Source: Nereocystis luetkeana (Eukaryota; Sar; Phaeophyceae; Laminariales; Laminariaceae). From it: a stretch of 64,000 bases of DNA. Shown here one piece after another: positions 5,593 to 49,644 of the stretch; position 1 is the stretch's first letter, and each line of letters begins with the position of its first letter. The DNA is taken from contig JARUPZ010000001.1 of NCBI GenBank assembly GCA_031213475.1, positions 21,757,642 through 21,821,641 of the forward strand, given 5' to 3'. The notes under the pieces were generated by a model. That model did not search any database, was not told the origin of the DNA, and saw only the letters and a program-made list of their open reading frames with translations. The position numbers and the translations under genes were made by a program.

Positions 5593-6031
5593 TCAACAAT
5601 AGAGCGGTACCGGGGTAACAACGGATACCAGGACAATGTGTGGTATATCTCTTAGAGCGTATTTGTCATACATGTTCTGCCTCACAATCCACGACCCTAC
5701 TATATCTTGTACCAGGTATAGGGTTAGTGGGATATATTCACGAGGGACACTCTGGCGTATTACAGTATCAATGGGATACTTGGGCACAAACATTGGTACA
5801 AATGTGAGGACAAAACACGCTTTCTCTTGTGTATTTATTAAGTTCCGTCGAAGGGATTTCACGTCCGATACTCCGGCACCGACAAAAAACGATGGTTTGT
5901 TCAACTTCTTGAAACGATTTTCCGTATCAAATCCGACGCATAAACAACAGTTGGTTTCACGGAGAAGCCACAGCGTTGAATGCAAATGCTCTACCAGTAT
6001 TAATGACAAGTTCGATCAACGCCCACCGTAA
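5593..6031. other. Overlapping unassigned open frames on both strands
   Basis: Open frames of 138 codons (minus, 5593-6009) and 131 codons (plus, 5636-6031) lie opposite each other. Neither resembles a family I know, and two long frames facing each other usually means low stop density and not a gene. One TACCAGGTA motif sits inside at 5710-5718. I do not call a gene. Confidence 0.2.
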
Positions 6032-6239
6032 ATTACATTATTTTTATGAGGCTTGCCATCCGACTTGTGCAACATGAGCTTTCACGTTGATCAATCAAAA
6101 CATTCTTGGAAGAAGAAATCTCCGTATACGAAGGAAACCTATACACCAAGTCTATCCTTGTCTACTTCTTTTATGTTCATCTACGGTAATCCATGTGTTG
6201 TTTTTTCTCCCTACTACATCTTATATTTACTCGTTACTT

Positions 6240-6779
6240 CTACTTTTGAACCCCAACCCGCATCCAAGCTCCACCCCCACGCCATCGGCTTGGATCTGTC
6301 ATGCCCCCCCCCCCCCTGCTCCTTCTCGATTCCTGACGACCCCTAAGCTGGAGTCTGAATCGTGATACCCTCCTCGAAATGGCGACCTGTGTAGTCACCG
6401 AGACGATTTGGAGTAGGCGTTCCTTCACCAATCCTTTCCGCCCCATCGACCCACCATCCCTCCCCCCCACTACTACACTAACAGCCATCTGGTCAATTAA
6501 CTTACTGACCTCTACCCCGAGACGCCCAAAGCTTTCCACTGCTAAAGTGACCAGTTCGTGCCTCCGTTCGTCAAAGGACACATGTCTCGGACGAGCGTAG
6601 TGTTGGCGCTTGCGCGCCACGGAGGAAGAGAGAGCTGAACCATCTTGATCGGCACTGCCTCCCCGCAGGTGTATCGGCAGTTGAGGGTCCGCATGGGTGA
6701 CGCCCAGCAGGATGGACTTCTCCCTAGACTCCCCAATAGGAACATCCCGTAGACCTCCTCTCCTGACGACAATGCCCAT
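6240..6779 (-). pseudogene. C-terminal nuclease-like domain of the retrotransposon
   Basis: This minus frame begins with GIVVRRGGLRD, followed by KSILLGVTHADPQ. The spacing resembles the PD...DVT core of a restriction-like endonuclease, but both expected aspartates appear as glycine here. A conserved block, VSFDERRHELVTLAVESFGRLG, comes next (first 20 residues or so), then QIVSVTTQVAISRRVSR. The same block occurs in the plus-strand fragment at 11984-12304. The endonuclease reading is inference from architecture; the homology between the two fragments is directly visible. Confidence 0.6.
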
Positions 6780-6806
6780 CCGCAGATTTGGTTCTGCGGT
6801 GAACGG

Positions 6807-7136
6807 TTAGCCGCTTTCCACGAGTTGTGGAATTCCCAGCCGCTTCAACGTTCGGGTCATCGTGTGGACGAGCGGTTGAGGTTGCTTTACCTGCGCCCCC
6901 GCTCTGGGACAGATGCGCGCGCGGCAAGTGTCCACGTCCACTGCATCGCAGCAGGGGCACCACACTGCCACGTGTTCCTCTATCCCAATGAACCGCCTTC
7001 CCATGCCCACAAACTCTTCTGCGGGTATGACCCGGAGTGAGTCCGTTGGTCTCGCCCGAAGGCATGTCGTAGCTCCTGCCCCCTGTAGGCTCTTATAGCG
7101 AGCCTTGACGAGGGCTTTGGTTTCGGTCCCACCCAT
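6807..7136 (-). pseudogene. Zinc-motif segment of the retrotransposon
   Basis: This minus frame of 109 codons has Cys60, Cys62, Cys63, Cys71 and Cys76 (CPCC followed by CRARIC), which resembles the CCHC zinc motif that precedes the nuclease domain in RLE-type non-LTR elements. An Arg seems to occupy the expected His position, so zinc binding may be lost. It lies between the RT thumb and the C-terminal domain, as expected for that architecture. Confidence 0.55.
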
Positions 7137-7211
7137 CGGGTCGCCCGGTCCGGGGGGGCGTGCTGTCTCCGGGAGCTCCTCCAGCCAGGCAGTGTGGGCT
7201 GCGTGCCGACT

Positions 7212-7971
7212 TTAGTTTACCAACCTGCCCAACTTCTGTTGGACTTTGCGTGAGTTCGTGATTCTGGCGTCGTGTGCAGCCAGCATGTCAGTCCCTGGGG
7301 GTCTTGCGGCCCTGCCCTCCTCTGCGCCTGGACCCCATTTTAACCAAGATTCGGGGACGATGCCCGCCATCGCTTCCTGTGACACCCCCCATGTATCCCT
7401 CATCTGCCGCAAGCTGTCGACCAGCTGAGCAATGATGCTCGACTCTGGGAGCCCCTTCTCAACGTATCGTCTAACGGGTCTTTGAGGTTTGCTAGGACCT
7501 CCGGCAAGGTCCCCACCCTGCTCCCGATGGATGCCGACATTCTCTTTACTTCTGTCGACGGCAGCCTTAAGCCTGCCGCTCCCGTAGAAAGGCGTGCTTG
7601 GGCTTGCTGGTAAGGTTTGAGAGTCAGCCGACTATTCGGGCACCCCTCCTGGAAAACCGGTTGTGCTTCCGCCGCTCCAGGTAGTTCGAAGATTTTCTCG
7701 TGAGCCCACTGGGCCCCGTTGTCTGCTCTTTTACATGCCTCGAGGAACAATCCCGGGTCCAAGGCCCTTTCGAGGTAACTCGCCCGTTGCCCGAGAGGTT
7801 CGACGGTATCAGGGTCGCTGTCTGTTTGTCGGACATGTTAGCGAGGCAGCGCGCAAGGTGGTCCGCGCCCCCATCCCTCACTATCTCCATTGCTCGCCCC
7901 TGTATGTACTCTTCCGTGCCGATCGGGACACCCCCCTCCTTTGTCTGCAATGCGGACCTCAACGCTTTCAA
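7212..7971 (-). pseudogene. RT thumb/connection region of the same element
   Basis: Minus frames at 7624-7971, 7400-7762 and 7212-7412 continue the polyprotein downstream of the HMDD box. A recognisable stretch is QAQARLSTGAAGLRLPSTEV, the kind of glycine/leucine-rich segment found after the palm in this RT family. The reading jumps between frames several times, so these are decayed remains and not separate genes. Confidence 0.6.
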
Positions 7972-7991
7972 GGAGCAAACTCTTCTTCATC

Positions 7992-9028
7992 TTAAGATGG
8001 AGTGCCTTTTGGTGGTAGCGCCACTGATTTGGCGGCGTTGACCACAATGCCGATGCCATCTAGCTCTCGTCGGATGAAGGCGAATGCTCTGATCGTGTTG
8101 GCCGTGATCCCTGAAAGGCCAAGAAAAACATCGTCCATGTGATGTACGCGAAGGCTTCCCCTCCTTCTCTCTCGAATGCCTACCGGAGTCGCTTCAGCCC
8201 CGGTCGTTACGCCAGGCAAAACAATTGCTGGTCCCATGGCATCCCCTTGCAGGACACCGCTGGAGCAAGCGATCGTCCTGGTCTCTCCTGAGTCCATCCG
8301 GAAAAACACGTCGGCTGGTCTTGTGCCGTAGCACTTGGCCACTAAACGCATGAGCGTCGGCACGCATTTTGCCACATCTTCTAGCACCTCCGTCCTTTGT
8401 ACGGTGTTGAAGGCGTTGGAGCAGTCCGTGAGAACAAGCCAGTGGCCCGCCTCGCCCTCAATCCCACATGCTCCACTCCTCCGGGTACGGCGACCCCAAA
8501 CTGTCTCACTTCTCGGTTTGCGTCCTCCAACCGCGGTCGCCATGGTCGCATAGCCCCTGCGGTGATGAGCCTCCTCCATGTCATACCCACGCAGACCGGC
8601 CGGCACTTCTCCTCCAACGCAGTGAGGCTTGACTGCAGGAAGAGCTGCCATAACTCGGGTGGGAACGCGTTCGGCTCATGGACGATTCTCCGCCAGAAGG
8701 CTGTCATACCACTTCCGAACTCCTCTCTGCCGATATCAGTTTGAATGCTGGATTGTAGATGAGCAAATCGTTGACCGTCGTTTCCCGGGCCTGAGAGGGC
8801 GCTCCGGGAGTTGATGACGTCGAAGAGCACCTCGGAGGCGTACTCATTGTCAGGGCACCACGAGGGGTCATTTCCACCTACCACCTCGGTGTCGCTCGCT
8901 AGCACTGTGGCCGTCGCCACCGCGGACACGGCTGTATGGTGTTCCGGGGGAAACTTGACCACCAATGTGTTCCACGGTTCCTCGTTTCCCGCTGATCGTG
9001 GTTCTGCCAGAAGGTTGCGTGCTGCCAC
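7992..9028 (-). pseudogene. Reverse transcriptase core, frameshifted
   Basis: Two overlapping minus frames carry the RT core. Frame one (8381-9028) has a conserved fingers stretch with PVCVGMTWRRLI and a following FGVAVPGGVEH segment. Frame two (7992-8651) continues with TDCSNAF (first catalytic Asp), GVLQGDAMGPA (template/primer grip region) and HMDD. HMDD corresponds to the YADD/YMDD box and keeps both aspartates, but has His where an aromatic residue is usual. The change of frame falls near 8.45 kb, and another near 8.0 kb moves into the downstream thumb region (7624-7971). RT function in copying element RNA is known for the family. This copy cannot make a full protein. Confidence 0.8.
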
Positions 9029-9966: not shown

Positions 9967-10012
9967 ACAGGTATACTATATACGCCATCATGAAGGAATA
10001 CATTTTACGATT

Positions 10013-10772
10013 TTCATTTTATTTTTTCTCTTCCTTTTCTGATTGATAAGCCGTACTGAAGGAGCCGTGTGGCGTGGTTGGATGACGAACCTGCTCTACT
10101 CGTTTCGTATTGTCTGACGCCAAGGGGTTGGGCATTGTTGACGAACGCAGGGCGGAGACGGCAGTCTGGGTAGCAAGGTACCAGGCGGATTAGCAGGGAG
10201 AACCTGGCTATACTACTCGTACCACAAACTGCTGCCGCCACCTGGAAGGTGCTTTGGGCTTCGGTCTGCCTGTTATTTCCCCCTTTGTTATTTTTCCTTG
10301 TTACTTTTTTCCTTCGTTCTTCGTCTTATACTCTGTTTACAAGCAGTGGTGTTTTTGTTAAATGTTTTTTTTCCTTCGTTCTTTTCCAGCTCGTTCTTTT
10401 TCAAGTGTTGGCCACCTCGCCTGCGGGGGGGGGGCACGACAGATTGTTTCTCCTAGATTTTGCTTTCTGTTTTTTCTTTTTCTCTTTCGATTTGTCTACC
10501 TTGTTTTTGTTTTCTCTTTGGTTGTTTCTTTTTGTTTCACTATTTCATAGATTGCGTATGTCGTGCCTCTCGTACTCTAGTATGATGACATGGCTTTGCA
10601 TTGCCCACTGCAGTGCATACTGCACACGTGGCAACGTAGTATCTCTGTGGCGTAGTTTTGTGACCACATAACTTGTATATCTTCTAGGATTGAAGAATCG
10701 ACACGGACACTGGTTGTGCTGGATGTCGACGGGTAGAAATAACGGTTTAATGTGGAGAACACACACACACAT
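10013..10772 (+). repeat. Modular repeat family, copy A (3' end in (AC)n)
   Basis: The copy has four parts: a pyrimidine tract, a GC-rich block of about 220 bp, a long T-rich tract ending in TTTCATAG, and a conserved 3' block. The 3' block contains GAATCGACACGGACACTGG and ends with GAACACACACACACA. The same order is seen at 12515-13313 and, 5'-truncated, at 13312-13827 and 17280-17774; a diverged copy is at 32860-33651. Variable 5' truncation with a constant 3' end is typical of retroposed sequences. The short open frames inside encode phenylalanine-rich peptides from the T-rich tract and are not genes. Confidence 0.7.
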
Positions 10773-11266
10773 TTTACGATTGATACAACACTTAACATCA
10801 ACGATAGACATCGAACACAAACGCACGGCGAATGTATGTATAAAATACATATATATAGATATTTAAGATCACGTGTGTTGTATGTGTACGACTATATCAA
10901 CGGGTAGATATACCAGTAACAACAGGCAGGAGATACATTCTGTCACCGGCTGATATGGGTTTCGCGTTTAAAAACGAATGGATGAAATTATTTACCATCC
11001 TTCCATTCTTTGCCAAAACCGACCTATAATCGAGTCATATGATACCAGGTACACAAGATCACCCGATAAAGATATGCATCATCACGCATTACCGCTCTCT
11101 TTCTCCCCCGTTGAAATATATACCATCCTCACATTGTTCGAGAAAACCGTGCTATTAATATGAGACTCTACAACACGTGGCACAAAATTGCATCATCACC
11201 CATTGCCTCATTCTATTTCACCCGTTGAATTATTTAACATCCTCATATTGTTCGACTAAACCGGTC

Positions 11267-12514: not shown

Positions 12515-13313
12515 TATGACATGGCATTTTTCTTTTCCTTTTCTGATTAATAAGCCGTACTGAAGGAGCCGTGTGGCGTGGTTGGATGACAAACCCGCTC
12601 TGCTCGTTTCGTTTTGTCTGACGCCAAGGGGCTGGGCATCGTTGACGAACGCAGGGTGGAAACGGCAGTCTGGGTAGCAAGGTACCAGGCGGATTAGCAG
12701 GGGGAACCTGGCCATACTACTATTCGAATATTAATAGTACCACAAACTGCTGCCGCCACCTGGAGGGTGTTTTGGGCTTTAGTCTGCTTGCTATTTCCCT
12801 TCGTTATTTTGTTATTATCCCTTTCTTTGTTATTAGTATTACTATTTTTTTCCTTGGTTCTTTGTCTTATACTGTACTCTGTTTACAAGCAGTGGCGTTT
12901 TTGTTAATTTTTTCTTTTTTCCAGCTTGTTCTGTTTCAAGTGTTGGCCACCTCGCCTGCGGGGGGGGGCACGACAGATTGTTTCTCCTAGTTTTTGCTTT
13001 CATTTTTTTTCTTCTTCTTTTTCTCTTTCGATTTGTCTACTTTGTTTTTGTTTTCTCTTTGATTGTTTCTTTTCGTTTCTCTAATTCATACCAGGTAGAT
13101 TGTGTATGTCGTGCCTGTCGTATCTAGTATGATGACATGACTTTGCATCGCCCACTGCAGTGGTTACTGCATAACGTAGTATCTCTGTGGCGTAGCTTTG
13201 TGACCACAGAACTTGAATCTCTTCTAGGATTGAAGAATCGGCACGGACACTGGTTGTGCTGGATGTCGACGGGTAGAAAGAACGGTTTAATGTGAAGAAC
13301 ACACACACACACT
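12515..13313 (+). repeat. Modular repeat family, copy B
   Basis: Close match to copy A over its full length, with a 3' end of (AC)n at about 13300-13313. At 13089-13097 the TTTCATAG junction carries an extra 7 bp, giving TTCATACCAGGTAGATTG where copies A and C read TTCATAGATTG. This is the cleanest empty-site comparison for the TACCAGGTA microinsertions. Confidence 0.75.
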
Positions 13314-14731: not shown

Positions 14732-14791
14732 ACCCCGCTATACCTCGGTACGCGTACACCCAAGTATCCGGGTACCGAGGTATAGCGGGGT
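14732..14791. repeat. Perfect 20-bp inverted repeat (hairpin)
   Basis: Arms 14732-14751 and 14772-14791 are perfect reverse complements with a 20-nt spacer. The arm core is CCCCGCTATACCTCGGTA. It could be a palindromic remnant of a small element or a cruciform-forming site. Confidence 0.8.
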
Positions 14792-14960: not shown

Positions 14961-16170
14961 TATGAGAGTGAGGTGCTAAAAGGGTTAAGGCACAACAATG
15001 CCCATCGCAGGTATCATGGTAGGGGTGTTTTTCTTGTCCATCCTCATCGTTTTTGGCTGCTACCGCGGGACCACGACGAACACAGTTTGCGTGTACTACT
15101 GCTGCTGTGCGCTTGATGTTGTACTCGAACCGCTATGCTACAGCAGTGGCGGAATGGTGGCACGAAATACGTTTCCCGAGTCGCATCGCCTGAGGAGCTA
15201 TTGCAGCTCCATACATATATATGGTACTATTGCAGAATATAGGCAGCAGTAAGTAGTGGTGCCCGCAGTCAAGAAGCATTACGATGAGGAAAACAGACTC
15301 CGATCGGCACGAACAGCAAGAAAAAGACGGTTGGGAAACACGACTCAACAGGGACAGACTCTAAATCTTATACCTGGTACGGTACAGTTAGATCAAAATT
15401 ATTCGGGAAAAAAATAAGATTTTGTGAGCCTGGACGCGGTGCTGACGATTCTTAACACCGGGGGCCCCTGTTGCTGTACTTTGTGAGTCACCCAAAACCA
15501 ATGTTTTAGAATATGTGCAGGCTTAACCATTGTAGGACTGCAGACACATTATGGCCCGTGAGTACGCACGAATAAAACTATAGTACGCCACAAGCAGGTA
15601 GGTGTTAGGTATGGCGATTGACGTGCGCACCAGCGCGGAGCTGATATGCATGCCGAGACACGCACGACCAAATTACAAAAGTGTTATCGAGTAACGACTA
15701 TGATGTCTACTGACAAGTATAATCTCTAACAACGGGATGCCGGTTACAGTGGGGTTCCGCCAGTAAGGCGGTCGTGGGCTAGGGCAATACTTCTGTCTTT
15801 TGTTGGGGAAAGCCGCCTTATCCATTGTACAGTAGGTGTTGTATGCAGTTCCCCAGTAGCACCATCATATTTTTACCGTCTGATATCGGGATGCCGCCTC
15901 ACTCAGACTGTCGTATGGGGTGACACTTCCTTGTCCCGCCATCAGAGGAGAGGAGCTCTGCGAGCCAGACAATGCCCGACCAAAAGATACAACTCTTCCA
16001 AAGCCCTGTTTCTCAGAAACCCAATCCACTATGCAAGGCTCCGGTAGTGTCGCTTCAAGACAAGCAATCCCGGTTGTTGGACAATTGAAGCAGCTTGCTC
16101 TTGTGGTCGATTTCGTGTATCGCCATCTTTACGGCGAGTCAGAAAACGTGGAATACGTCGTTGTCACTAT
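14961..16170. other. No recognised gene; one motif
   Basis: Short unassigned open frames only (for example 14998-15252 and 15920-16192). A TACCTGGTA motif is at 15371-15379. I cannot assign a function to any frame. Confidence 0.4.
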
Positions 16171-16175
16171 TATTA

Positions 16176-16272
16176 CGGGTGACCATAGTTAATAGGACCA
16201 AATATTTAAAGTAAAAATGGTTTAATATAGGTTTTTATGTATACCATAGGCCCTGTCAACTATGATCCCCCG
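16176..16272. mobile_element. TA-flanked MITE, copy 1
   Basis: A 97-bp element with terminal inverted repeats starting CGGGTGACCATAGTTAATAG and ending in the inverted GATCCCCCG, flanked on both sides by TA (16174-16175 and 16273-16274). Relatives are at 37170-37279 and 46137-46235. The TA duplication points to a Tc1/mariner-like or related transposase supplied in trans (inference). Confidence 0.7.
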
Positions 16273-16847: not shown

Positions 16848-16874
16848 TACCAGGTACGTACCTGGTACCTGGTA
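16848..16874. repeat. Cluster of three TACC(A/T)GGTA motifs
   Basis: TACCAGGTA (16848-16856) is followed by TACCTGGTA at 16859-16867 and again at 16866-16874, the last two sharing a TA. The first two units form a perfect 20-bp palindrome. Confidence 0.9.
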
Positions 16875-17279: not shown

Positions 17280-17774
17280 CCGTAAAAACGATTCCTACAT
17301 GTTCCTTGTTACTTTCTCCTTGGTTCTTTGTCTTACTCTGTTCACAAGCAGTGGTGTCTTTTGTTATTTCTTCTTTTTTCCAGCTCGTTCTTTTTCAAGT
17401 GTAGGCCACCTCGCCTGCGGGGGGGGGGGCACGACAGATTGTTTCTCTTAGATTTTGCTTTCATTTTTTTTCTTCTTCTTCTTTTTCGACTTGTCTACCT
17501 TGTTTTTGTTTTCTCTTTGATTGTTTCTTTTCGTTTCACTATTTCATAGATTGCGTATGTCGTGCCTGTCGTATCTAGTATGATGACATGGCTTTGCATT
17601 GCCCACTGCAGTTCACACTGCACACGTGGCAACGTAGTATCTCTGTGGCGTAGCTTTGTGACCACAGAACTTGTATCTCTTCTAGGATGGAAGAATCGGC
17701 ACGGACACTGGTTGTGCTGGATGTCGACGGGTAGAAAGAACGGTTTAATGTGAAGAACACACACACACACATGT
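17280..17774 (+). repeat. Modular repeat family, copy C (5'-truncated)
   Basis: It starts in the T-rich tract (CCTTGGTTCTTTGTCTTACT) and matches copies A and B to the terminal (AC)n at 17756-17772. It keeps the uninterrupted TTTCATAGATTGCG junction, so it serves as an empty-site reference for the 7-bp insertion in copy B. Confidence 0.75.
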
Positions 17775-18606: not shown

Positions 18607-18670
18607 CACTAACCCTACTGTACATTAACCCTAACCCAATAACAATACACCCTAACCCTAACCCTAACAA
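18607..18670. repeat. Interstitial telomere-type repeats, interrupted
   Basis: Three short blocks of TAACCC or CCCTAA units are separated by AATACAC-type spacers. The longest block has three units at about 18650-18668. Confidence 0.75.
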
Positions 18671-18679
18671 TACACCGGA

Positions 18680-20749: not shown

Positions 20750-23220
20750 ATCTTGTTAGAGCACACGGCTTGGAAATATGAGGTTCGACAAAATACTTGA
20801 TTTCACAGCAAAAAAGTGATCACTCTGGCGTCCGCTTTTTGACAGAACACGTATTATTGCGCATTACATTAGAATAACAAATTAATTGATAACATTACTT
20901 CTTGACTTTCCTGTGTGTAGAGTTTGGTTTTCGAACGCCGCATCTAATTAGGTTCTCTCTAAAAGGCATATCCTTATTACCCAATAATGCTGCTCCGTGG
21001 TAGTGCCGATGATATCCAAATATTTTTGGAATAGAGTGTAACACAAGACATGACAATCCTCCTCAATCGACGTGATAGTTGCAGCAAATATTGCGTGGAA
21101 CCCGAATTCCACTGCGAAGGCCTCCTGGTATTCGGTGCTTGCACGAACAGTAACTGACAAACGTCGCACAATTATTCCTAAAAAAAAAAACTACGGCCGG
21201 GCGTATTCCCCCGAGACGACCTCGAAGCCCCTCGTATCTGCTGCAAAATCGAAATAGACAATGACCTTTGCTCCAGAGGGCGTTCTTTCACCGAATCCCC
21301 CCAAACCCCCACATTTACCGCATACAAATCGATGCGGACCTCAACGCACGCTGACGACATCTTCAACACAGTGTCGCTCGCGACCAGATGTTTCCCGAGC
21401 ACTTACTTCTCCGCTGAGCTACTTGGTGCTACTGCTGCTGCTAGCGCAGATAATCTTTCTTTGCGATCCTTCTTCCGTTCGTTCCATAATGCATGACATT
21501 GCTGCCTCTTTTTCTTCGATGGCCTCATTATAGGGTATGACAAAGCAACCCCCCACGCATCTGACATGCCCCCCTAACACAGCCAATTGAGCCCCCATGC
21601 ACATCCTGGTTACTGATGTGGTTGGGCACTCGTTTGCTCAGCCAAATTTTGAATCATTGGAAGAGCAACCGCAAGCTTCTCGATGACAGTAGTTAGGCGA
21701 AGGGAATTTTCTTAGGTCTGATTCCCCACACAGGTATCGGCACCCCCGTACCCCCACCGGCGAATCCCTGCTGACCTCCAGCCCCACCTTGAATAGTTCC
21801 TTGTCCCAGAGAATAATAATAGCTGCATTCGCCCCCCCCCCCCCATCCTCACCTCCAGCAAGCGCCACGTGCGCACCATTAGCTGCCGCTACTCGAGTAA
21901 CAGCTTTTTCCGTGCCGAAAGCAGCAGCGGCCATCGCATCAGTGTTCTCCGCGGCCTCATCTTCCGCAATAATAGCAACAGCAACTGCCGCACTTCAACT
22001 AGCCCAAACGTTGCCTAATCCCTCTTCCCGAACCACGCCGCCCCCACCTGGAAGTGTTTTTTCCCAAGCTTCAGCAACTGCTGCTCCTGCTTCGTGTACG
22101 CTCGCGTGGTGACTCATTCTTGTTCCGACTCCCCGACCTCCTACACAGTGACAAGCCCCTGAGGTGAACGGTCTTCGTCCTTTATATCACAACCAATCCC
22201 TGCCAGCGTGTTCCCAGTTCAACCGACTAAACCCGCCCTCATTTTGATGACCCTTACGCCCGTCTCCTCTTCTGATTGATAAAATAGCTCTCAACGAACT
22301 CCAGATTCCCAATGTTTAATCTTCCACACTGGAAACTTTCCCCACTCGTGGCCAGCAGCGCGGAACCTTTTTATTATTATTTTTATTTTCTAAATATAAA
22401 CACACCCACTCCTTGAATTCTGCAGCTTCAGATCTGTTCCGCCCATTGTACGGACATTAGTACCTTGCGCGAGGCCATGCAGAACCCGTAGCACGCGCGA
22501 TTGACGTAACATAACACGTACAGCTTGCCTAGATGGGCTTCGACGAAAGCCTCGACCTCTCAGCCTATGAAATTTTTCGAAAGATGCCCGCAAACGGTAA
22601 TGAAAACATGCGTGCTCATCATGATCGGTCTCGCCCAGAAGACCACAGGAAGTTTCAACTATTTCTCGAAGGTGCCCCCACGTCTAGATACAATGCACAA
22701 ACATTTGAAATATCTTTCGCAACCTCCCCAGCACTGTGGGTGGCGTATTCACGGGAATTTGTCGGATGGCCTCCTGGTCGAGCACGCGGGAGAGTCGTCA
22801 GGGGAAAATAAGGAGGATAGGAGGTATATTAGCAATATGTGACAGTACGAGAGCAGACAAGGTAGATGCGGTAAGTAAGTGTTACTAAGGGTTACCAGGT
22901 ACAGCTATTAATGTTAGGCGGTAAAGGTGTACAGTATTAATAGTACTGTGACACAGTCACCTCCATGCTTGAACCTCTCGTAGTCGAAAACATGGTAGCT
23001 GGCGTTTGGACACGTACGTAATGAAGAGCGGACAGGGCGTGTGAATACGAAGCAAGGTGAGGTCAGGCCGTATATCTGACAGGAATCGATCGCACTGGCG
23101 GCGTGATTACGTGGACTGCGTTGGATCTGAAACATTACATGCGGTTGGATGACAAGTATTGCACACTACCAGGTACTAGTAGATCGATCGCTCGCGAGAT
23201 ATACAAGCTACTTGACAATG
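20750..23220. other. No recognised gene; alanine-rich frames
   Basis: Around 21638-22112 long frames on both strands encode alanine-rich low-complexity peptides in a GC-rich patch with a C11 run at about 21832. No family recognised. A TACCAGGTA is at 22893-22901 and another at 23167-23175. Confidence 0.35.
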
Positions 23221-23934: not shown

Positions 23935-26900
23935 CATAGACATGCATTGGTTCGTGTACAGTACGCGTGTAAGCACCGCTGTTGAACTTCTCAACTACCA
24001 GATGCTACATAAGGTATGGGTGTGTGTGCGCGTGTGCAATATTATGCAGCATGTCCTAGAAGGAGATGGAGACATGTGTGCCGGAAGAAGGCGTAAGCTT
24101 CGTGGCAGCAATAATATTATAGCTGAAAGGAGGTTGCTACAGACTAGGGTGTGGCTGTCGTCTGAGGTGGGTGTACGGACGGCAAACTGTGTGGTGCCGT
24201 AGTCCCTCTGTACCGATCTGTTTGACATCCATTTTTTCTTCTCGTAGATATGTATTCGTGTACGCGTTTCTCAGCTGATGTGTGTGCTATCAATAGGACG
24301 AATCGCATGTATGTGCGAAAATGAGATAGAAACGCCACCGTGCTGAGGTGAGTGTTTTGCAGTGTTGCAAAGGCCAGAATGAAAACACCCGGAGAGATAT
24401 TTGTCAAGGCGGAGGAGATCATTGACGACGCACGGTGGTGCCTCCTCGTATCGTTCGACTGGGGCATGCTTTGCCGTCGTCCGCAGATTAAATAATGTGT
24501 GTGTGCGTCGTCGTCGTCGCTGAATACGCCGCTATGTGTCGGGGTCTATGTTTGTCGTTGGTTTGGCCGTGGAGGTCCTGGCGACGAGGAGTGTTTGTAA
24601 TGGCCGATCTAATCGTTACACTGGACAGACGAAGCAGGAAATGCAGCGAACCGGCAAAAATGTTTTTCGATCCTGCGAAAAATCAATAAAAATACGTAAG
24701 TGGGCATCAAAGCTCAACTTTATTTTCAGTATGTGCTAAGGGGGCATCAGGGCTATCTATGTGTAATTGAAACCTGGGTAGATAAATACGCAATTACCTT
24801 GGGAATTTTGGGGTATTTTTTCTGAGCTCGTATAGTACATCCGATTGATTTTAACAAACTTGTGACCCCCGCTTTGTCTCGCTCAATTTTTAGAGTTATA
24901 AGGCCAAACAAAGTTGCCAAGAACCGGGGGGTTAATAGGAACCCGAATCCGGTGTCATTTCGTTTCCGAAAAAATTGGCCGTTTTCGATAAAAATTGGCC
25001 CGGATTGGGGGGGGAAAGAAAGAAAGAAAAAAAAATACTGGACTTTTTGCTTGTGTTTTCTTCGCTGTACGTGGTAAATTAGATTCTCTATGTAACACAT
25101 GAATATAATTCTACACTATCGATCGGGAATAGCACGTGCACGATTGATGTAACGTTATTCGCTTGTCTTAACGTATGTTCTCTTTCGCATCTCATAGACC
25201 CATACTGCAATGCATCATAATATGATCTCATTGATTTCTTCAGCAGGTAGAACACGTTTCGAGAACCGCCCTACATGCTCAGCTGCGCTTAGCCTTGGCA
25301 CCCCGAGGACACCCAGCCCTCCTCATTGCCGTGTGGTTGTGTGTGGACAGCAGTAGTAGTGTGGCTATCTCTTTGTGTGTCGCTCTGAAACTTAGAGCGG
25401 CCATACAGTATCTCGCTCATTATTTTGTTTTCTTGGGTAATAAATACGAAAAATCCCAGTAGTGCAGGCCCAATACGCCCGAATCCGTAGGGTTTTTCTG
25501 TGTTTCAAATGTAGCGTCAGTTGTTGTTGCGCATGAAACGAAACCCACTCCTCTTAAGTTCAAGCAGGCGGAACACTTTGTATCCCTGGACAGGTCTGCC
25601 TATGAAGTCGGTCCTCGTTGGTACTCACGTGTGCTGTTAGCTTAGAGATAGAAGAAGAGCAGCTTTACTCCTTTCGTGAATGACTAGGAAATTGAGGCCA
25701 AGCTCGTACCTGTCCGGAATACTCCTGGCTTTCCACATAAGATACGCCTTCCAAGTACTACAAATACGATCCCAGTGCCCAAACCGAGGTAATTACCAGG
25801 TTTTCAACCTTACACAAAGCAGTACCGTAACACTAGCCCACTCTGATGAGCCGTATATATATGCAGAATTATGGTAAATTCATGGAAACCCCGATTCCAC
25901 GAACTAGAGCTTGAATCCAAGATGCGGCTCCCCAAAACCTACTCCCACGCCTCTGAACGGCAAGGCAACGAAGCCGGCAAAGTAGGTAAACAATAAATTA
26001 AAGAAGATCTAGCCAGAAGGGGCAGGAAGAAATAATCAAGAAAAATCAACGGCACGTCACCCGCGACGGAGGGGGAGGCGAGGAAGATGCATGGAAAAGC
26101 GAAGAGTGAACAGCAAAAACGAGAAAAAAAATAACACGGAAAACGCCGAGAACCACCGAATACCCAGCATACAAGTCTGGAAACGTGTCCTGTGCCACAG
26201 AAATGAGTGGCCCCATGACCCAGACCAGCTCCAACACTGAGCGCGGGTGTAGGCAGGACGAAATACATACGTAAAAATCATCCCAAACCAAGCAGAAGAA
26301 AAACAAACATACCAGTAGCACACCCAACAGAAACATCCCCGACAAGAGTACAAATTCGATCCCAGTGCCTGAACACAGGGGATTACCGGGCTTGTAACAT
26401 CATACGAAGCATAACACCCCCCCCCCCCCATACAAGGCTTTCTGTGTTTTTGTCTAACGAAATTCGGCAAAAAAACGCTTATTCCACTTGACATGAAGCT
26501 GGTGGACGAGATCTGTTGAAAACCGGCCTAAAATAAATGAGAGGACCTCGAGTTCGTTCATATACAACCAAACAAAACCGCCCAAAAAATCATCGATTTG
26601 CGAATATCTCGCCAAAATATCCAAAACCAAAAAAACTGATCCCTGAAAAAGATCCACCTGAAATATAGCGTTTCAACGGTATATTCCATGGCCCCAAGAG
26701 ATTATCCTGTCGCCCAGAATATGTATGGTTTTTACTATATTTTAAAATAATGGTAAAAATTAACGGATGGCCAATATGATTCGAAAAATCAAGTGTTTTT
26801 CAGTGGTTTCTACAATGAATGGTATGTTTGGTAATTAATTTCAGATATACCAGGTATACCAAGAGCTGCAATTTGATCTACTGTAGTATTCAGTCTTTGT

Positions 26901-32822: not shown

Positions 32823-33651
32823 AGGGGGAAACGCACTGGACAAAAAAATGAAAGGAGACGGCAGACAGGGTAGTAAGGCGCCAGGCCCACCAGTATGTAG
32901 AACATGACTATACGACCCGTGCCGCCAGCTGATGCGGCTGGTTTGCACGTGGTCTTCCTTTGTCATTTTCGTTTCATTGCCTTGTCTCTCTTTCTTCCCG
33001 TCCTTAACAAAGGACTCGTGTAGCGTGGGTGGAATACTCGCCTACTTTGCGTGTTTCGTATTGTTTCTGCCCCATCATCTATCTCCGGAAACAGGGCATG
33101 TAGTTGACGAACGCAAAACGGAGACGGACAGAGTAGCTATGTGCCAGACCGATTAATCATAGTGAGAACCTGGCCATGCCATTCGTACCACAACCTGCGA
33201 CGACTACTTGTGAAGGGTGGTTTGAGCTCCGGTTTGCCTGAAATTTTATTTGGTTCTTGTAGTCTTACCCTTCTTATTTATACGTAGAGATGTTATTTCC
33301 GTGGCTCGTTCGTTTTAAGTGTCTGCCACATCGCCTGATGGGAGACAGGATCTTGCTTTTCAGTTTTGCTCTTTCGATTGTTCTCTGTGTTTTCTGTTGT
33401 CTGTTGTTTGCTTGTTTCAGTTATTTTTGTCCCTTTCAGATACCTGGTAATAATGTATACGACGTTCCTTGTATGTTCAACATGGCATTGCATTGCCTAC
33501 CCTTCTTACTGCATGGCAACGTACAATAATACCTCTGAGGCTTAGTTTTGTGACCAAATAACTTGGATACCTCTAGGATAGAAAAATCGGCGTGGACACT
33601 GGTTGTGCTGGGTGTCGACGGGCAGAAAGAACGGTATAATGTACCAGGTAA
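32760..33651 (+). repeat. Modular repeat family, copy E (diverged)
   Basis: It has the same module order as copies A-D: a G-rich lead-in, the GGCGCCAGGCCCACCAG block, a T-rich tract, a second GC-rich block, and a long T-rich tract. It ends with the GACACTGGTTGTGCTGGGTGTCGACGGG block. Two motifs of the TACC(A/T)GGTA type sit inside it (33441-33449 and 33642-33650). The first is close to the TTTCATAG junction that is also hit in copy B, but in the other orientation. Confidence 0.65.
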
Positions 33652-34776: not shown

Positions 34777-34785
34777 TACCAGGTA
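34777..34785. repeat. TACCAGGTA motif
   Basis: Isolated copy of the dispersed 9-mer, in AT-rich sequence. Confidence 0.9.
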
Positions 34786-37165: not shown

Positions 37166-37169
37166 ATTT

Positions 37170-37279
37170 CGGGGAACCATATTAAATACCAGGTACCTGG
37201 TAGGACCTACGGTACAGATAAAAACCTACCAGGCATATAACCCTAACCCTAACCCTAACCCTATTGTTTTGGTCCCCCG
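37170..37279. mobile_element. TA-flanked MITE, copy 3, with insertions
   Basis: The left end, CGGGGAACCATATTAAATA, and the right end, GGTCCCCCG followed by TA, match copies 1 and 2. Two changes have occurred inside. TAGGACC has become TA-CCAGG-TA-CCTGG-TA-GGACC (37187-37202), and a run of CCCTAA repeats occupies 37241-37263. The left flank reads TT where TA is expected. Confidence 0.65.
37241..37263. repeat. Interstitial telomere-type repeat within a MITE
   Basis: Three to four units of CCCTAA inside MITE copy 3, where copies 1 and 2 have unrelated AT-rich sequence. Confidence 0.8.
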
Positions 37280-37913: not shown

Positions 37914-37922
37914 TACCTGGTA
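37914..37922. repeat. TACCTGGTA inside the young LTR element
   Basis: The first unit of the 5' repeat reads GCTGTACCTGGTACTGCGG, while units two and three (about 38207 and 38488) read GCTGTACTGCGG. The difference is exactly 7 bp. Confidence 0.9.
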
Positions 37923-38700
37923 CTGCGGTGTGTCTGTTAACGGTATGTTCTTTCGTCTTCTGCACGTTTTGCCGCTGTTGTTATTTTTTTTTACTCTAAT
38001 CATTATTTATTTTTGTTCACTTTTGCTATTCATTTTAATGTCTTAACAAAACCGTGTGCGCTGCTGTACTGCGATTTTGCTGCTGTACTGCGATTTTGCT
38101 ACCGCCCGACTGACTACTGCTGTGCCTTGATTTCGCGCCACTGCCTTAGCCTTAGTACGGCTATGCGTGGTTTTCTCGCTGATCCTATGCTAATTTCCTG
38201 TACTGCTGTACTGCGGTGTGTCTGTTAACGGTATGTTCTTTCGTCTTCTGCACGTTTTGCCGCTGTTGTTATTTTTTTTTTACTCTGATCATTATTATTT
38301 TTGTTCACTTTTGCTATTCATTTTAATGTCTTAACAACACCGTGTGCGCTGCTGTACTGCGATTTTGCTGCTGTACTGCGATTTTGCTACCGCCCGACTG
38401 ACTACTGCTGTGCCGTGATTTCGCGCCACTGCTTAGTACGGTTATGCGTGGTTTTCTCGCTGATCCTATGCTAATTTCCTGTACTGCTGTACTGCGGTGT
38501 GTCTGTTAACGGTATGTTCTTTCGTCTTCTGCACGTTTTGCCGCTGTTGTTATTTTTTTACTCTGATCATTATTATTTTTGTTCACTTTTATTTTTTTTT
38601 CACTTTTGATTTTTCGCCACTGTACTACTGTGCCGTGATTTCACGCCACGGTAGTACGGTTATGCGGAGATTTCTCGCTGAGCCAATGCTAATTTCCTCA
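37915..38700 (+). repeat. Tandem repeat, about 285-bp unit, three copies
   Basis: Units start TGCGGTGTGTCTGTTAACGG at 37924, 38212 and 38493 (spacing 288 and 281 bp). Each has a T-rich part and a GCTGTACTGCGATTTTGCTG segment. The third copy is shortened. It occupies the untranslated leader region of the LTR element. Confidence 0.9.
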
Positions 38701-40599: not shown

Positions 40600-41066
40600 T
40601 CTTGCACTGACATGTATGTGTCTTTTTGCCTTTGCTTGACTGTGAGGGCTCTCCAGTTCTCTTCCTCCCCTTCGCCTCGTTTTTCGCTTCCATTCTCGTT
40701 GACGGGGGGAGGGCGACGCGTTCGTCGGAAGCCTGCGACGGCATGACATCTCCCATGTCCCGGTGTCTTGCTCGTCCACAGCTTGCTGCACCGCTCCCTT
40801 GCTCCGACGCGGTGCGTTCCCTCGCTCCGGTGTCTTGCCTGTCCGCCGCTCGCTGCGCCGCTCCCTCGCTCCGACGCCGTGCGTTAGCCCGTTCCAGTGT
40901 CTTGTTCGCCCGCCGCCCGCGGTGTCGTTCCCCCGCTACGACGCCGTGCATTTCCTCGCTCCGCCATTTGCTCGTCCGTCGTTTGCTCGCTCGGAAGCCG
41001 TGTCCGTGCTCTGCTCTATCGCCCCTATGCCTTGATCGTACTGCCCAACGACCAGATCTTGAAGGA
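40600..41066 (+). other. Low-complexity Arg/Ser/Pro-type open region
   Basis: Frames are open on the plus strand in all phases because the sequence is built from short repeats such as TTGCTCGTCC and CCGCTCGCTGCG. I do not think this encodes a conserved protein. Confidence 0.4.
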
Positions 41067-41737
41067 GTCGACCAGCCGCTATATGGAGCTGTTGAAAGAG
41101 GTGCTTTCAGCAGGGGGGCAGGTTCCGCTGTCGTCGGGTAGGAGGACGCCGGTCATCCACCGGGCGGTCGAGGTACTCACCAATCCGGCGTCCCTCGCGA
41201 GAAGGCAACGGAACGACGCTCATCTGGGTCAGTAGTCGACCAGCCGCTATATGGAGCTGTTGAAAGAGGTGCTTTCAGCAGGGGGGCAGGTTCCGCTGTC
41301 GTCGGGTAGGAGGACGCCGGTCATCCATCGGGCGGTCGAGGTACTCACCAATCCGGCATCCCTCGCGAGAAGGCAACGGAACGACGCTCATCTGGGTCAG
41401 TAGTCGACCAGCCGCTATATGGAGCTGTTGAAAGAGGTGCTTTCAGCAGGGGGGCAGGTTCCGCTGTCGTCGGGTAGGAGGACGCCGGTCATCCATCGGG
41501 CGGTCGAGGTACTCACCAATCCGGCATCCCTCGCGAGAAGGCAACGGAACGACGCTCATCTGGGTCAGTAGTCGACCAGCCGCTATATGGAGCTGTTGAA
41601 AGAGGTGCTTTCAGCAGGGGGGCAGGTTCCGCTGTCGTCGGGTAGGAGGACGCCGGTCATCCATCGGGCGGTCGAGGTACTCACCAATCCGGCATCCCTC
41701 GCGAGAAGGCAACGGAACGACGCTCATCTGGGTCAGG
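41067..41737 (+). repeat. 168-bp tandem repeat, four copies, each closed by TAG
   Basis: Starts GTCGACCAGCCGCTATATGG at 41067, 41235, 41403 and 41571, a period of exactly 168 bp (56 codons). The units are almost identical (one CACC/CATC and one GCG/GCA difference seen). In the frame that continues into the integrase, each of the first three units ends GGTCAG-TAG, so the frame is stopped three times. The fourth unit continues GGTCAGGTTAGC and stays open. Expansion of one coding segment created the stops. Confidence 0.9.
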
Positions 41738-43589: not shown

Positions 43590-44705
43590 TTCTGCTTGCT
43601 TTTGGTGTGTCTTGTTTCAACCGAAGAGGCCGTGTTGGTTCTTTTCCGTTTAATTTTCGTGGTTTTCGATTTTATTTAGCTAGTGTTTCTGCTTACTTTT
43701 GGTGTGTCGTGTTTCAACCGAAGAGGCCGTGTTGGTTCTTTTCCGTTTAGTTCTCGTGGTTTTCGATTTTATTATTCATCTCGTGTTTCAACCGAAGAGG
43801 CCGTGTTGGTTCTTTTCCGTTTAGTTCTCGTGGTTTTCGATTTTATTTATCTCGTGTTTCAACCGAAGAGGCCGTGTTGGTTCTTTTCCGTTTAGTTCTC
43901 GTGGTTTTCGATTTTATTTATCTCGTGTTTCAACCGAAGAGGCCGTGTTGGTTCTTTTCCGTTTAAGTTCCCGTGGTTTTCGATTTTATTCATCTCGTGT
44001 TTCAACCGAAGAGGCCGTGTTGGTTCTTTTCCGTTTAAATCTCGTGGTTTTCGATTTTATTTATCTCGTGTTTCAACCAAAGAGGCCGTGTTGGTTCTTT
44101 TCCGTTTTGTTCTCGTGGTTTTCGATTTTATTTATCCAGTGTTTCAACCGAAGAGGCCGTGTTGGTTCTTTTCCGTTTTGTTCTCGTGGTTTTCGATTTT
44201 ATTTATCCAGTGTTTCAACCGAAGAGGCCGTGTTGGTTCTTTTCCGTTTTGTTCTCGTGGTTTTCGATTTTATTTATCCAGTGTTTCAACCGAAGAGGCC
44301 GTGTTGGTTCTTTTCCGTTTTGTTCTCGTGGTTTTCGATTTTATTTATCCAGTGTTTCAACCGAAGAGGCCGTGTTGGTTCTTTTCCGTTTTGTTCTCGT
44401 GGTTTTCGATTTTATTTATCCAGTGTTTCAACCGAAGAGGCCGTGTTGGTTCTTTTCCGTTTTGTTCTCGTGGTTTTCGATTTTATTTATCCAGTGTTTC
44501 AACCGAAGAGGCCGTGTTGGTTCTTTTCCGTTTTGTTCTCGTGGTTTTCGATTTTATTTATCCAGTGTTTCAACCGAAGAGGCCGTGTTGGTTCTTTTCC
44601 GTTTTGTTCTCGTGGTTTTCGATTTTATTTATCCAGTGTTTCAACCGAAGAGGCCGTGTTGGTTCTTTTCCGTTTTGTTCTCGTGGTTTTCGATTGTAGT
44701 CTTGC
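43590..44705 (+). repeat. 71-bp tandem repeat, 15 copies
   Basis: Each unit holds CAACCGAAGAGGCCGTGTTGG, from 43617 to 44641. The last eight to nine units are apparently identical and exactly 71 bp apart. Since 71 is not a multiple of three and the unit has no stop in any plus frame, the array is open in all three frames. That yields long apparent proteins of 203-255 residues, which are artefacts. It lies between the integrase and the right LTR. Confidence 0.92.
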
Positions 44706-45535: not shown

Positions 45536-46130
45536 ACACAGAGCAAGACGTAAAGGGGGCAGCAGGGAGAGAGGTGATCATGGTACAGGTATCATACGTC
45601 AGCCTGAATCTGAAACATTCTGGTACCTGGTAATATTATAATTGTTTCCAAAGTTTGGAAATTATGGGAAAAACGCTCTCCGATAAGAATGAACCTAAAG
45701 CAGACGGTGAAATACGGACGGCAGGTTCCGATAAACGCAACCAGCCATAGTAACACTCTCTGCACATATGGGTAGGTCGCCCACATACAGCGTGTAGGCG
45801 GCAGCGTTGAAACGATGGGATTCGTGCATGTTGTCTGCTGTTGTGTACCTTATATATCCGGACGGTGGTGTGTGCTCACAGCTCATCAGAGCCTAGGGAG
45901 GAAACAGGCAACAACAATATTGTACCGGTGCGTCCGTACAAGATAAGATAACGCCTCTCGTAGTGAAACCAGAGAAATCGTCTTATATCCACTCCCTCCG
46001 GAAAGAAACTGTGAGCGCCCGCCACGCGCTCCAGAGTGCACGGATCGCGCCTGGACCCCCACCAGTGTGTCCGGCCGGGCTTCCCGCGTCGACCCCATGG
46101 CGTTTTGTCCAAAAACGCGCTATTAATATA
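45536..46130. other. No recognised gene
   Basis: Flank of the LTR element. It contains one TACCTGGTA at 45624-45632 and nothing else recognised. Confidence 0.4.
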
Positions 46131-46136
46131 ATATTA

Positions 46137-46235
46137 CTGGGGGCCACAGTAAATAGGACCAAATATTGTTGGTAAAAAAAGCGAAATATATTGGTTTTTG
46201 TGTGTACCGTAGGTCCTATTTAATATGGTCCCCCG
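46137..46235. mobile_element. TA-flanked MITE, copy 2
   Basis: 99 bp, starting CTGGGGGCCACAGTAAATAG and ending ATATGGTCCCCCG, flanked by TA at 46135-46136 and 46236-46237. The interior GGTTTTTGTGTGTACCGTAG matches copies 1 and 3. Confidence 0.75.
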
Positions 46236-46504
46236 TATTAGTACGAAGAGATATATTCGAAAGGGAACGAAAATTTCACGTCGGGTATGTTTCCATATTT
46301 TTTTACGAACATTATTTGGTAGTAAACGAGTCGCGAACTCAGTTACCTGCAATTGACATATCCGCGACGCATCATCATGCTGGGCGAACGAGGATGGTTG
46401 TGCTGAAGTCTCATGCTGGTCTTGAAAGAAGGAACATTTAGACAGAGAGTGCGTACATATGTATACGCGGTCGTATATATCCGTGACGTTTAGGTTCATT
46501 TTAT

Positions 46505-46834
46505 ATGAAAAAAAAACAAAAGTCGTCAGAAGTAACAGCAGCAGCACATCACCAGGCGTGGCGGCGGCATCGACCACAGCAGCCGCAGCAGGGCACACGA
46601 AGCCAAAGTCAGCGTCGTGCACTTGGCGTGTTCACGTTTGTGACAGAAGAACACCTAGCCGTTTTATGGGAAAAGCCCGATGTTTTTTTTTCTGCTTGCA
46701 CTCAACTGGTGAGTATAGATACAGGCTTTAGGTTTTTGTTGCATCGCGCTCGCCGCCGCAACAACGGCCAAACAGCATTGATTGCTTCCATTGTGCATCG
46801 TCGGAAATTCTCTTTCGTACTGTACCAGGTATAG
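46505..46834 (+). other. Unassigned open frame
   Basis: A 109-codon frame with an internal stretch (GVFTFVTEEHLAVLWEKPDV) that looks protein-like, preceded by a CAG-rich part. It contains GGTGAGTAT at about 46709, which could be a splice donor. Not recognised; it may be an exon or chance. Confidence 0.2.
46823..46831. repeat. TACCAGGTA motif
   Basis: Isolated copy. A TACCTGGTA follows at 47088-47096. Confidence 0.9.
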
Positions 46835-47122
46835 TATGCAGGAAGACCGGCGGTCCTACCGCAACCCCACGTGGGGTGTGAAGTGCCGAGGGGAAAATGT
46901 TGCCCGAGTTTGGATGGAACTCGTACTATTAATACTCCGTATATTATTATTATGCTTATTGCCATCCGACAACAATGTGTAGTGTTGTTCTAATAAACGA
47001 CTGACAGAAAGTGAAGAACTCTCCAGAACCAAAGCGCGGCAGTATCCTACGACAAGATGTGACGTATTGTTTCTGAGCCTACCGAGGTACCTGGTACCGG
47101 CTAATCAAAGTATTGCGAACGA

Positions 47123-47480
47123 CGATAAAGAGTAGGGCCCACGTCTAGCGTATGCCAGTAGTATCTAAAACTACTCCCGTGTATGGATTTGCGCCAGTCG
47201 GAGAGACTTTGTAAATCTGCGTTGGATATTTCAGAACTTGATGGTCAACTTGACAAACAACAACAACGATAAAAGAGTAGGGCCCACGTCTAGCGTATAC
47301 GAGTATCTAAAAATTCTCCTGTGTATGGATTTGCACCAGTCGGAGAGACTTTGTAAATCGGCGTTGGATATTTCAGAACTTGATGGTCAACTCGACAAAC
47401 AACCATTCCGCAGAACCAATTCCCAGAAATTGTTTAACGAGGGAAAAGTGCTGTGAGTACTGTACGTTGATGATGAAGAG
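47123..47480. repeat. Tandem duplication, 144-bp unit
   Basis: Two units share GAGTAGGGCCCACGTCTAGC, GTGTATGGATTTGC, CAGTCGGAGAGACTTTGTAA and GATGGTCAACT. A weaker third start (GATGAAGAGTAG) is at about 47470. Confidence 0.85.
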
Positions 47481-48203
47481 TAGAAACCAAGCCAAGCGTC
47501 AACAAGTAATACTCCTGTTGTTGGGATTCGGATCCAGATCTATGAGCGAGCAGTATCGTCGTTGATGACCAGAGATTTTGCCAGTAGTAGAGAACACCGT
47601 AAATTTGTCCGAGTCTCCTGGTATTGGGTGATCATTCCCCCTCCGTCACAACCCACAACTCATCATACATCGTCTCCCAAGGAAAGGAACACATCAGAGC
47701 AAGTGCCAGACCTCCGACCAAGCCAAGGCGCAGTCAGCGAGTGTTCGAGTGGAGGCCGTTCCCAGTGAACTGAAACGAGCAGAGGGAGGAAGGAAGGCCA
47801 GTCGAGTACGTAAGTAAGTGCTACTGCTGCCGTACTGCTTGTTGTAGAGTCGATTGGTTTGGTGTGTACCAGTAGGACTTTTTTTTCCGACAAACAACCT
47901 TCACGTGTCGGGATTTTACACGTAGTTATTTATGTGCAGTTTACAGGAGCTCAAGAGCTTCTCCATAAAGAGCTCGCAGCCACGAGATAGATACGAACCG
48001 ACCAGGCGGCCCTGTGATGATGGCAGCCGGTCAGGTATTAAGGACGGGCCAAAAGCCCCTCGTCACAAGCAGCAGCAGTGGCGCTATACCCATACGGGTG
48101 ATCTGCAGAGGTTCCTCACCCCGTGATTTGACATTATACGCATGAAGTTTGCTGTTGGATTCGCCGAAATACTTCGAAGTATGAATATCAATAATATACC
48201 ACG

Positions 48204-48319
48204 TACCAGGTAGGTATCTAACCTTGAATCGCCGAAAATGATAAGGTGTGGCGCAAGTCGCCGCGGCGGCACGGATACCGCAGTTTTTTTTCCGCACTAC
48301 TAGACGACGATCTGTCCAC

Positions 48320-48360
<41 letters not shown>

Positions 48361-48810
48361 GATACGCCTTGCAAGTTAACAATGCCCTGGTACCCTGCTA
48401 GAACCGTGTGCTGCTGTGTGCTGGTACGTAGCAGTGTTGCTGCAGTATTTATAGTGGCCTGCCGTAAGTTCCCTGATGGTACAGTCTACCTGGTACACCG
48501 GTTAGTGTAGTCAGCATCCACTGATCTCCAGCATCCACAACACGGACCATGCATGGCAGTGGCACGTGACTACTGCTTGCTGCTGCTATTCATAAGAGGG
48601 GCTGTGGACTCTGTGAGGTGTGATGCCACCAGCAGCAGTGTAGCATGGCTCGTAGCATGTTTACGCTGTCAAGCCAGTAATCGATGTTGACGACCTGGCG
48701 TGATATTTTGCAGAGGCGGTGCTGGTATCAACTATTGTACCTCGTATCAACCATTATTGCATCAATTTTACTCTACTCGTCGAGTCTAAACGAATACATC
48801 ATACCAGGTA
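48204..48810. repeat. Three dispersed TACC(A/T)GGTA motifs
   Basis: Exact copies at 48204-48212 (A), 48487-48495 (T) and 48802-48810 (A) within 0.6 kb of non-coding sequence. A further TACCTGGTA is at 49569-49577. Confidence 0.9.
48317..48361. repeat. (CAA)n microsatellite
   Basis: About 14 CAA/AAC units. Confidence 0.9.
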
Positions 48811-49644
48811 CAGAGTGCCGCATCCGCATATACCACGGGAGTTTATTTTTCGGTGGCTGTGCTGTCTCTACCCGACCAAGGCCCTAGGCTTGTCTTGTTT
48901 GCTACATATATATTCTCGTTCGCAGTATCTTTCACTTGCTGCTGCTTCGTGGTGGTCGTGTGTATCTTTCACAAAACAGTATACTTGTACTCGTACGCGG
49001 CAATACACTGGACTACAAGGTTGAACATCCCCCACGCCCACGAGCAACGGACAGCCCTACAACAGTCGAATACTATCAGTTGGTCTGCGCATCGTACTTG
49101 CTCGAGTTTCATACAACGACTTTGAGTTATCTTTGATGGTTGTCCTTGGACGTAATCTGCGGGCAACTGCTGCGTGTCTGCACACAAGTATTTCTTCTGT
49201 CTGGTATGGCTGTTCGCTGTATTTTTGTTTTTTCGAACCACAAAGATACCCCGTCCTTCAATCAACAGGGATCCAGGCACAGAACGGCCACTTGACAACT
49301 ATACCCAAAGATACGGCAGCGGCAGGACCTAAAATCATGAACTATAGGCGACTCTTGGGTGATAGTCTGTACTTGTACTTGCACTTGCACTACGAGTACT
49401 ACTGCTGTTGTACGGCATCAGCATCATCCGTTACTTTGTACTCGTCGGTAGCGTCTGACTCGGGAGACGCATAGGCTCGTGCGGGTATTGAGGATTTTTT
49501 TGTTTCGAAATGGATCCCGCCCGTCAGTCTGACGGTTGGAAACTGAGTGCATGTCGGAACATAATATATACCTGGTATGGTGGTTGGACTCCAAGCACCA
49601 TATATATTATGTTTCGGCACCTACCTATTAATAGGACAGGTGAC

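Follow-up and report, generated by a model that had tools for sequence, protein, structure and literature searches.

Across the 64,000-nucleotide stretch examined here (the window, G000:C1:21757642-21821641 of a 465,085,209-bp genome), the 9-mer TACCWGGTA recurs as the filled form of a small insertion, a 7-bp unit consisting of CCWGG and a duplicated TA placed at a TA step. These sites are most probably footprints left at excision by a cut-and-paste transposon that targets TA, whose ends begin CCAGG and are cut internally at 5 nt. The products fall into two classes, one with a 5-nt and one with a 6-nt insert. An excision reading had been proposed in an earlier note made from the window alone. 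It is supported by the spectrum of the 6-nt inserts, by a target preference common to both classes and by paralogs that retain the empty site; the link from the scars to a source transposon is one that we infer.

A full exact-match scan returned 23 copies of the 9-mer in the window, at precisely the 23 starts reported previously and at no others. Dinucleotide-preserving shuffles of the window (n=100) contained 0.41 sites on average and at most 2, in line with the earlier chance estimate of about 0.5. Counting the motif genome-wide had been suggested as a check, and the count lies far from expectation: 182,395 sites over 465 Mb, including copies multiplied along with repeats, against 1,744 for the same pattern read backwards, an approximately 105-fold excess. 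In a 282-kb sample (twenty 10-kb stretches, the window and 3-kb loci, with the overlapping L005 and L006 dropped; L numbers denote sampled or fetched genome stretches), no two of the 86 sites had identical 20-bp flanks, a test that is blind to diverged copies, and the genome-wide figure does not equal a number of independent events. Later loci were added, and L008 and L029 removed, to give an enlarged sample of 347,768 bp, in which 98 sites form 92 runs.

Comparison of filled and empty repeat copies reveals the insertion itself. In one repeat family, copy B carries the footprint TACCAGGTA at 13089..13097 and reads TTCATACCAGGTAGATTG, and copies A and C read TTCATAGATTG at the empty sites 10544..10554 and 17543..17553, both on the plus strand; the alignment, in which rows A, B and C are informative and a fourth row, L040, is a misplaced stretch and uninformative, confirms the states first described. 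In a set of tandem units, described before as long terminal repeat (LTR) units, unit 1 has TACCTGGTA at 37914..37922 within CTGCTGTACCTGGTACTGCGG, and units 2 and 3 read CTGCTGTACTGCGG, the empty-site sequence GTACTGCGG starting at 38208..38216 and 38489..38497 on the plus strand. This second case holds on a common left flank of only about 6 bp, since unit 1 is divergent to the left of CTGCTG. The third involves a fragment of the TTACGGGGGACC miniature inverted-repeat transposable element (MITE), in which a tandem pair of units at 37187..37202 lies in ATTAAATA and is followed by GGACC; the copy at 46121..46250 on the plus strand, used as comparator, and other copies have no unit, as had been observed for this pair of copies. 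In addition, the L018 paralog of the footprint at 16848..16856 is without the unit, and the repeat adjoining the footprint at 49569..49577, near 49619, is empty.

We extended this comparison to 90 runs, splicing the two flanks of each together at one TA and querying them against the 347,768-bp sample, with no more than six paralogs displayed for any site. A spanning paralog was obtained for 19 of the 90 runs, and in 14 of these it had, by our judgement and with a few weak alignments, a plain uninterrupted TA; the remaining five had an altered TA or junction gaps. One site was common to two repeat copies (L027:831 and L040:1242), the right arm of L040 there reading TACCGGTA. The unit is thus seen as a 7-bp insertion at TA with the TA doubled. 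The MITE family is near-palindromic and 109 bp long and starts TTACGGGGGACCATAG; 19 of its copies could be aligned from the 348-kb sample, and the site that it duplicates seems to be TA or TTA. Three of these copies hold the unit, at two positions (one in L030, the other common to L035 and L028), with the double-unit fragment at 37187 lying outside the 19-copy alignment. In the window, the family is found at 16168-16278, at 46121-46250 and as the fragment near 37160-37215.

In the mechanism that we propose, a cut-and-paste transposon would insert at TA, and repair of a 2-nt staggered cut would double the TA. At a later excision, one strand would be cleaved 5 nt inside each element end. If both ends start 5'-CCAGG, the flanks would keep CCAGG overhangs capable of pairing at four of five positions, and joining them would yield TA-CCAGG-TA, or equally CCTGG on the opposite strand. 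In about one join in ten, the overhangs would pair with a shift of one base, producing TA-CC[A/C][G/T]GG-TA. The scar would then be heritable, the product of a two-step event of insertion and excision. One earlier argument for such a process falls away: the W of the motif had been taken for a central mismatch repaired either way, but TACCAGGTA and TACCTGGTA are reverse complements, CCAGG and CCTGG being one duplex in two orientations, so W is evidence neither of mismatch repair nor of a second allele.

The 6-nt class is more informative. When TACC-N(k)-GGTA was scanned over k 0-15 in the 282-kb sample, k=1 gave 89 occurrences (control 2) and k=2 gave 15 (control 4). Two CCAGG overhangs pair at 4/5 bases in register and at 2/4 when one base out, with tandem A.G/G.A mismatches, and a hand check found no further overlapping register pairs. 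The one-base slip predicts exactly four inserts, CCAGGG, CCCTGG, CCATGG and CCCGGG, and this class (MK, after its middle bases) occurs 18,845 times genome-wide against 1,198 for its control, a 16-fold excess. Because of this spectrum, we take the putative ends to begin CCAGG. Among the 83 places listed on contig C1 to 2.93 Mb, the four types were represented by AG 24, CT 23, CG 19 and AT 17, or 17, 22, 13 and 16 once same-type places less than 2 kb apart were merged, and equal shares were not rejected (chi-square p 0.66 raw, 0.48 merged). The places listed over the same stretch included five CCCAGG/CCTGGG (TG/CA) and one CCTAGG (TA). Simple slippage was rejected as the source of the class, as it would yield CCCAGG as often as CCAGGG, and CCCAGG is rare. 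The class expected of CCTGG ends (YR) occurs 6,174 times against a control of 710; among 50 places listed, 35 are CCCGGG, the member common to both predictions, with 10 TG/CA and 5 TA, and the composition is not the one that CCTGG overhangs would produce. The KM class, at 2,215 against 783, is 2.8-fold above its control, so non-predicted 6-nt types stand slightly above background. The 15 6-nt places of the 282-kb sample were AG/CT 7, GA/TC 3, AT 2, AA 1, AC 1 and CC 1.

The blunt fill-in join TACCAGGCCTGGTA was absent from the 282-kb sample. Longer joins following a footprint, such as CCAGGACCTGGTA, CCAGGCGGTA, CCAGGAGGTA and CCAGGGGTA, have the appearance of filler or of the same ends joined blunt. 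At G000:C1:1304145-1308353 there are eight TACCAGGGTA places, the last seven at 528-bp spacing; this series is a 6-nt footprint amplified within a tandem array.

Both classes have a common target signature. A second TA at -7/-6 was present in 55 of 172 flanks, compared with 6.7% around all TA steps, and at -7 it persisted in 50 of 184 flanks without tandem neighbours (6.7% background, p 8e-18). Weaker TA excesses occur at -14, -8, -4 and -2, and the TA-adjacent positions prefer W-Y-R. Genome-wide, 21,214 of the 182,395 sites (11.6%) are flanked by a TA at 7 bp in both directions, where an independent background predicts 0.45%. By class, TA at -7 was found in 62/196 flanks of the 5-nt sites, 7/20 of the predicted 6-nt sites and 1/12 of other 6-nt types. 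The target preference is therefore dyad-symmetric and common to both product classes.

These two bodies of evidence bear on the rival that survives best, in which an integrase-like enzyme or templated repair would put a 7-bp duplex, TACCAGG, directly into TA with no longer element involved. Such direct insertion would fit the lack of any long resident element in our searches, the 5-nt class taken alone is one sequence in either orientation, as it would be, and the TA target preference suits an integrase. It does not, however, predict near-equal CCAGGG, CCCTGG, CCATGG and CCCGGG alongside rare CCCAGG/CCTGGG and CCTAGG (5 and 1 against 83 of the predicted class among the places listed in the same 2.93 Mb), nor a target signature common to the 6-nt class, and we consider it unlikely. 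By our own reasoning, none of the rivals considered predicts the 6-nt spectrum.

The excision reading also implies that scars should behave as inherited DNA. Since a scar itself presents a TA 7 bp from another TA, the target preference predicts tandem pairs; it alone would give about 9,700, and 15,917 occur genome-wide, some of them repeat copies. At 59 distinct places among those listed, a hand count gave 40 pairs in the same orientation, 14 AT and 5 TA; the excess of same-orientation pairs may be partly a repeated copy rather than mechanism. Copies with a single mismatch outnumber those of the control motif by about 53 in the 282-kb sample, beside 86 exact sites, an excess of decayed copies as expected for inherited scars. 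Roughly, it would correspond to 8% divergence for a single age, with mixed ages likelier. Of the 73 distinct listed places with a TA on each side, 11 carry the same decayed triple scar, TATCAGGTACCAGGTACCAGGTA on either strand, which looks as if it had been amplified together with a repeat.

This behaviour weighs against programmed DNA elimination, according to which the assembly would be somatic and germline elements resembling internal eliminated sequences would be removed in each generation, leaving CCWGG. Elimination would account for absent residents beside 182,395 scars, but the scars decay and, in the case of TATCAGGTACCAGGTACCAGGTA, appear to be repeat-amplified as inherited DNA, tandem scars require the scar to have served as a target, and we know of no programmed DNA elimination in the likely hosts; we regard it as quite improbable. 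Still less probable is a functional or compositional motif, such as a binding, CCWGG methylation or replication site maintained by selection or biased mutation: a strongly enriched near-palindrome might suggest one, but paralogs differ by a 7-bp insertion with TA doubling, the flanking TA is part of the unit (it follows 23 of the 35 TACCWGG in the window) and 15,917 tandem pairs exist. A sequencing or assembly artefact is barely credible, for although methylated CCWGG is error-prone for some long reads, a fixed-sequence 7-bp insertion at TA with a two-sided TA-at-7 preference and decayed copies is to our knowledge no type of basecalling error.

Several observations count against the excision reading. 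Spacings other than the two product classes are also raised in the TACC-N(k)-GGTA scan, with 14 occurrences against a control of 2 at k=8, at least five of them tandem pairs, and counts over controls of 8/3, 8/2, 10/3 and 10/5 at k=6, 7, 12 and 13. Non-predicted GA/TC inserts account for three of the 15 6-nt places in the sample, two of them 32 bp apart at 14741 and 14773 of the window. We know of no TA-targeting transposase with a 5-nt stagger. The source is missing: elements with TA-CCAGG/CCTGG ends and a linked transposase, for which the earlier note had advised a search, did not turn up, and no TA-CCAGG...CCTGG-TA element was found within the scopes given here. A scan of 282 kb for TA-flanked inverted repeats gave no CCAGG family of terminal inverted repeats (TIRs) or MITEs, returning instead the TTACGGGGGACC MITE, which is unrelated, along with further inverted repeats. 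Genome-wide, CCAGG half-sites are not in excess, with 42,856 TACCAGGHB against 47,239 TACCTGGHB, and the reversed controls differ in the opposite direction (21,005 for CCAGG, 17,816 for CCTGG); the sample held 52 and 53, respectively. Among 84 shown of the 135 footprints abutted by CCAGG and further DNA, no common 8-mer start was found, in a test that covers only ends with V and S as their sixth and seventh bases. Six-frame searches of the genome at E 0.001, in which introns were not modelled, gave no match to DDE_3 or Transposase_1 (PF01359), the latter a weak absence as control genomes were silent too. The DDE_1 domain, of pogo type, has 28 matches in the genome, and a scripted check of end motifs and of inverted repeats found no TA-CCAGG ends in 11 stretches holding 12 of them (L029-L038 and L040, with two matches in L037, just 1.5 kb on either side of the match in L030-L032, and L039 being L029 with more flank). 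In L039 and L040, CCAGG ends were not seen on the flanks of the DDE_1 gene.

In the half-site lists, continuations recurred only where copies of a repeat were evident, and the many resident short TIR copies typical of a MITE family were found neither in 282 kb nor among the genome-wide half-sites. The surplus of TACCTGGHB over TACCAGGHB, about 4,400, perhaps comes from a repeat family; a difference of this size could conceal as many as a few thousand ends. Long insertions between paralogs were, among those listed, mostly tandem arrays. L040 has long inverted repeats similar to the window repeat at 10009-10778. With no half-site excess, scars seem to far outnumber residents, and the source is accordingly rare, of another family, outside the DNA examined or gone. 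If it is rare or lost today, its moves would mostly have been conservative and would have produced scars in place of copies. We lean, by a small margin, towards a TA transposase of undescribed geometry whose activity was long and near-purely conservative, leaving of the order of 200,000-350,000 scars (exact, slipped and, roughly extrapolated, decayed sites, with repeat copies included) beside a few thousand residents at most and possibly just a handful.

If this is true, transposon excision would rank among the main sources of short insertions in the genome of a eukaryote, and the scars a fossil record of end-joining repair outcomes. Footprints are usually too short to count; five nucleotides with TA on both sides can be counted, and their tally gives excisions, target preference and repair outcomes genome-wide. 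Scars, far more than copies, would record the history of the transposon, and a transposase would be predicted with a cleavage offset not described before, as far as we know. As 7-base insertions shift reading frames, they would also be a steady source of mutation.

The distribution of sites is patchy, with a mean of 2.6 and a variance of 4.9 per 10 kb over the 20 stretches. One of these, L023 (C4:2000001-2010000), is a TAC-repeat desert with 204 TA/kb and zero footprints, so a high density of TA is not by itself enough to draw insertions. L037 and L038 (contigs C34 and C32) have no footprints in 14.5 kb, a GC content of 0.54 and long open frames, and may be DNA of associated bacteria or else a region with few scars. 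With L023 excluded, open frames of at least 600 nt contain 5 of 98 sites, compared with 11% of TA steps (p 0.034), which is only suggestive of depletion in long open frames.

All window footprints come from the exact-match scan, without strand, and where no paralog, unit or copy comparison was given above they rest also on the shuffles. Besides the sites already placed, TACCAGGTA is found at 5710..5718, 11043..11051, 22893..22901, 23167..23175, 26848..26856, 33642..33650, 34777..34785, 46823..46831, 48204..48212 and 48802..48810, the sites at 13089 and 16848 having this form as well. TACCTGGTA, the form at 37914 and 49569, also occurs at 15371..15379, 33441..33449, 45624..45632, 47088..47096 and 48487..48495. 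A tandem pair with one TA in common, TACCTGGTACCTGGTA, lies at 16859..16874. The window further contains tandem arrays, 98-99% matching, at 43709-44695 (71 bp x 13.8) and 41066-41736 (168 bp x 4.0), short interstitial telomere-like TAACCC tracts at 18626-18676, 37238-37263 and 63181-63205, and a reverse transcriptase fragment (RVT_1) at 7992-8651 on the minus strand.

Our literature search, with subscription journals and preprints mostly outside its scope, turned up neither the motif nor any TA footprint of 5 nt. In Tc1-type elements, cut-and-paste excision leaves an insert made up of the opening bases of the element end. The Sleeping Beauty excision footprint is TAC(A/T)GTA (PMC3432063). There, as here, the TA is doubled and the insert is self-complementary save for its middle base, but it measures 3 nt (CAG) rather than 5 nt (CCAGG), and the elements concerned are engineered or resident, whereas about 180,000 scars here have no resident found. 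DDE_1 is linked to pogo, and pogo elements target TA. Passer, of the pogo superfamily, is described as leaving footprints of 0 to 4 bp (PMC9976928), and Hsmar2 as leaving variable, non-canonical ones (PMC3770610). Passer is likewise cut-and-paste and belongs to the superfamily whose DDE_1 domain occurs in this genome, although no examined DDE_1 copy here is tied to CCAGG ends. Stowaway and plant Mariner families persist as many resident MITEs. Stowaway-like MITEs and plant Mariner elements leave small footprints of duplication and end sequence after excision (PMC4561436). The footprints here are of the same make; resident ends, unlike theirs, are undetectable above background. If the host is a brown alga, the nearest described set is the Tc1-Mariner complement of Ectocarpus, with 17 families and mostly non-autonomous copies, in a source whose main text is without the terms footprint and TA dinucleotide (PMC12477816); DDE_3, in our case, was not found. 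The filled and empty paralogs show a TA target with TA duplication, as in Tc1/mariner, with inserts of 5 nt (182,395) and 6 nt (18,845) and neither DDE/D transposase domain, DDE_3 or Transposase_1, among the six-frame matches. A stagger of 2-3 nt, and hence a footprint of 2-3 nt, is defining for Tc1/mariner. Since the footprint is of another length and no transposase was seen, we do not file the sites in that group; by analogy, their source would work like a Tc1/mariner element with a longer offset.

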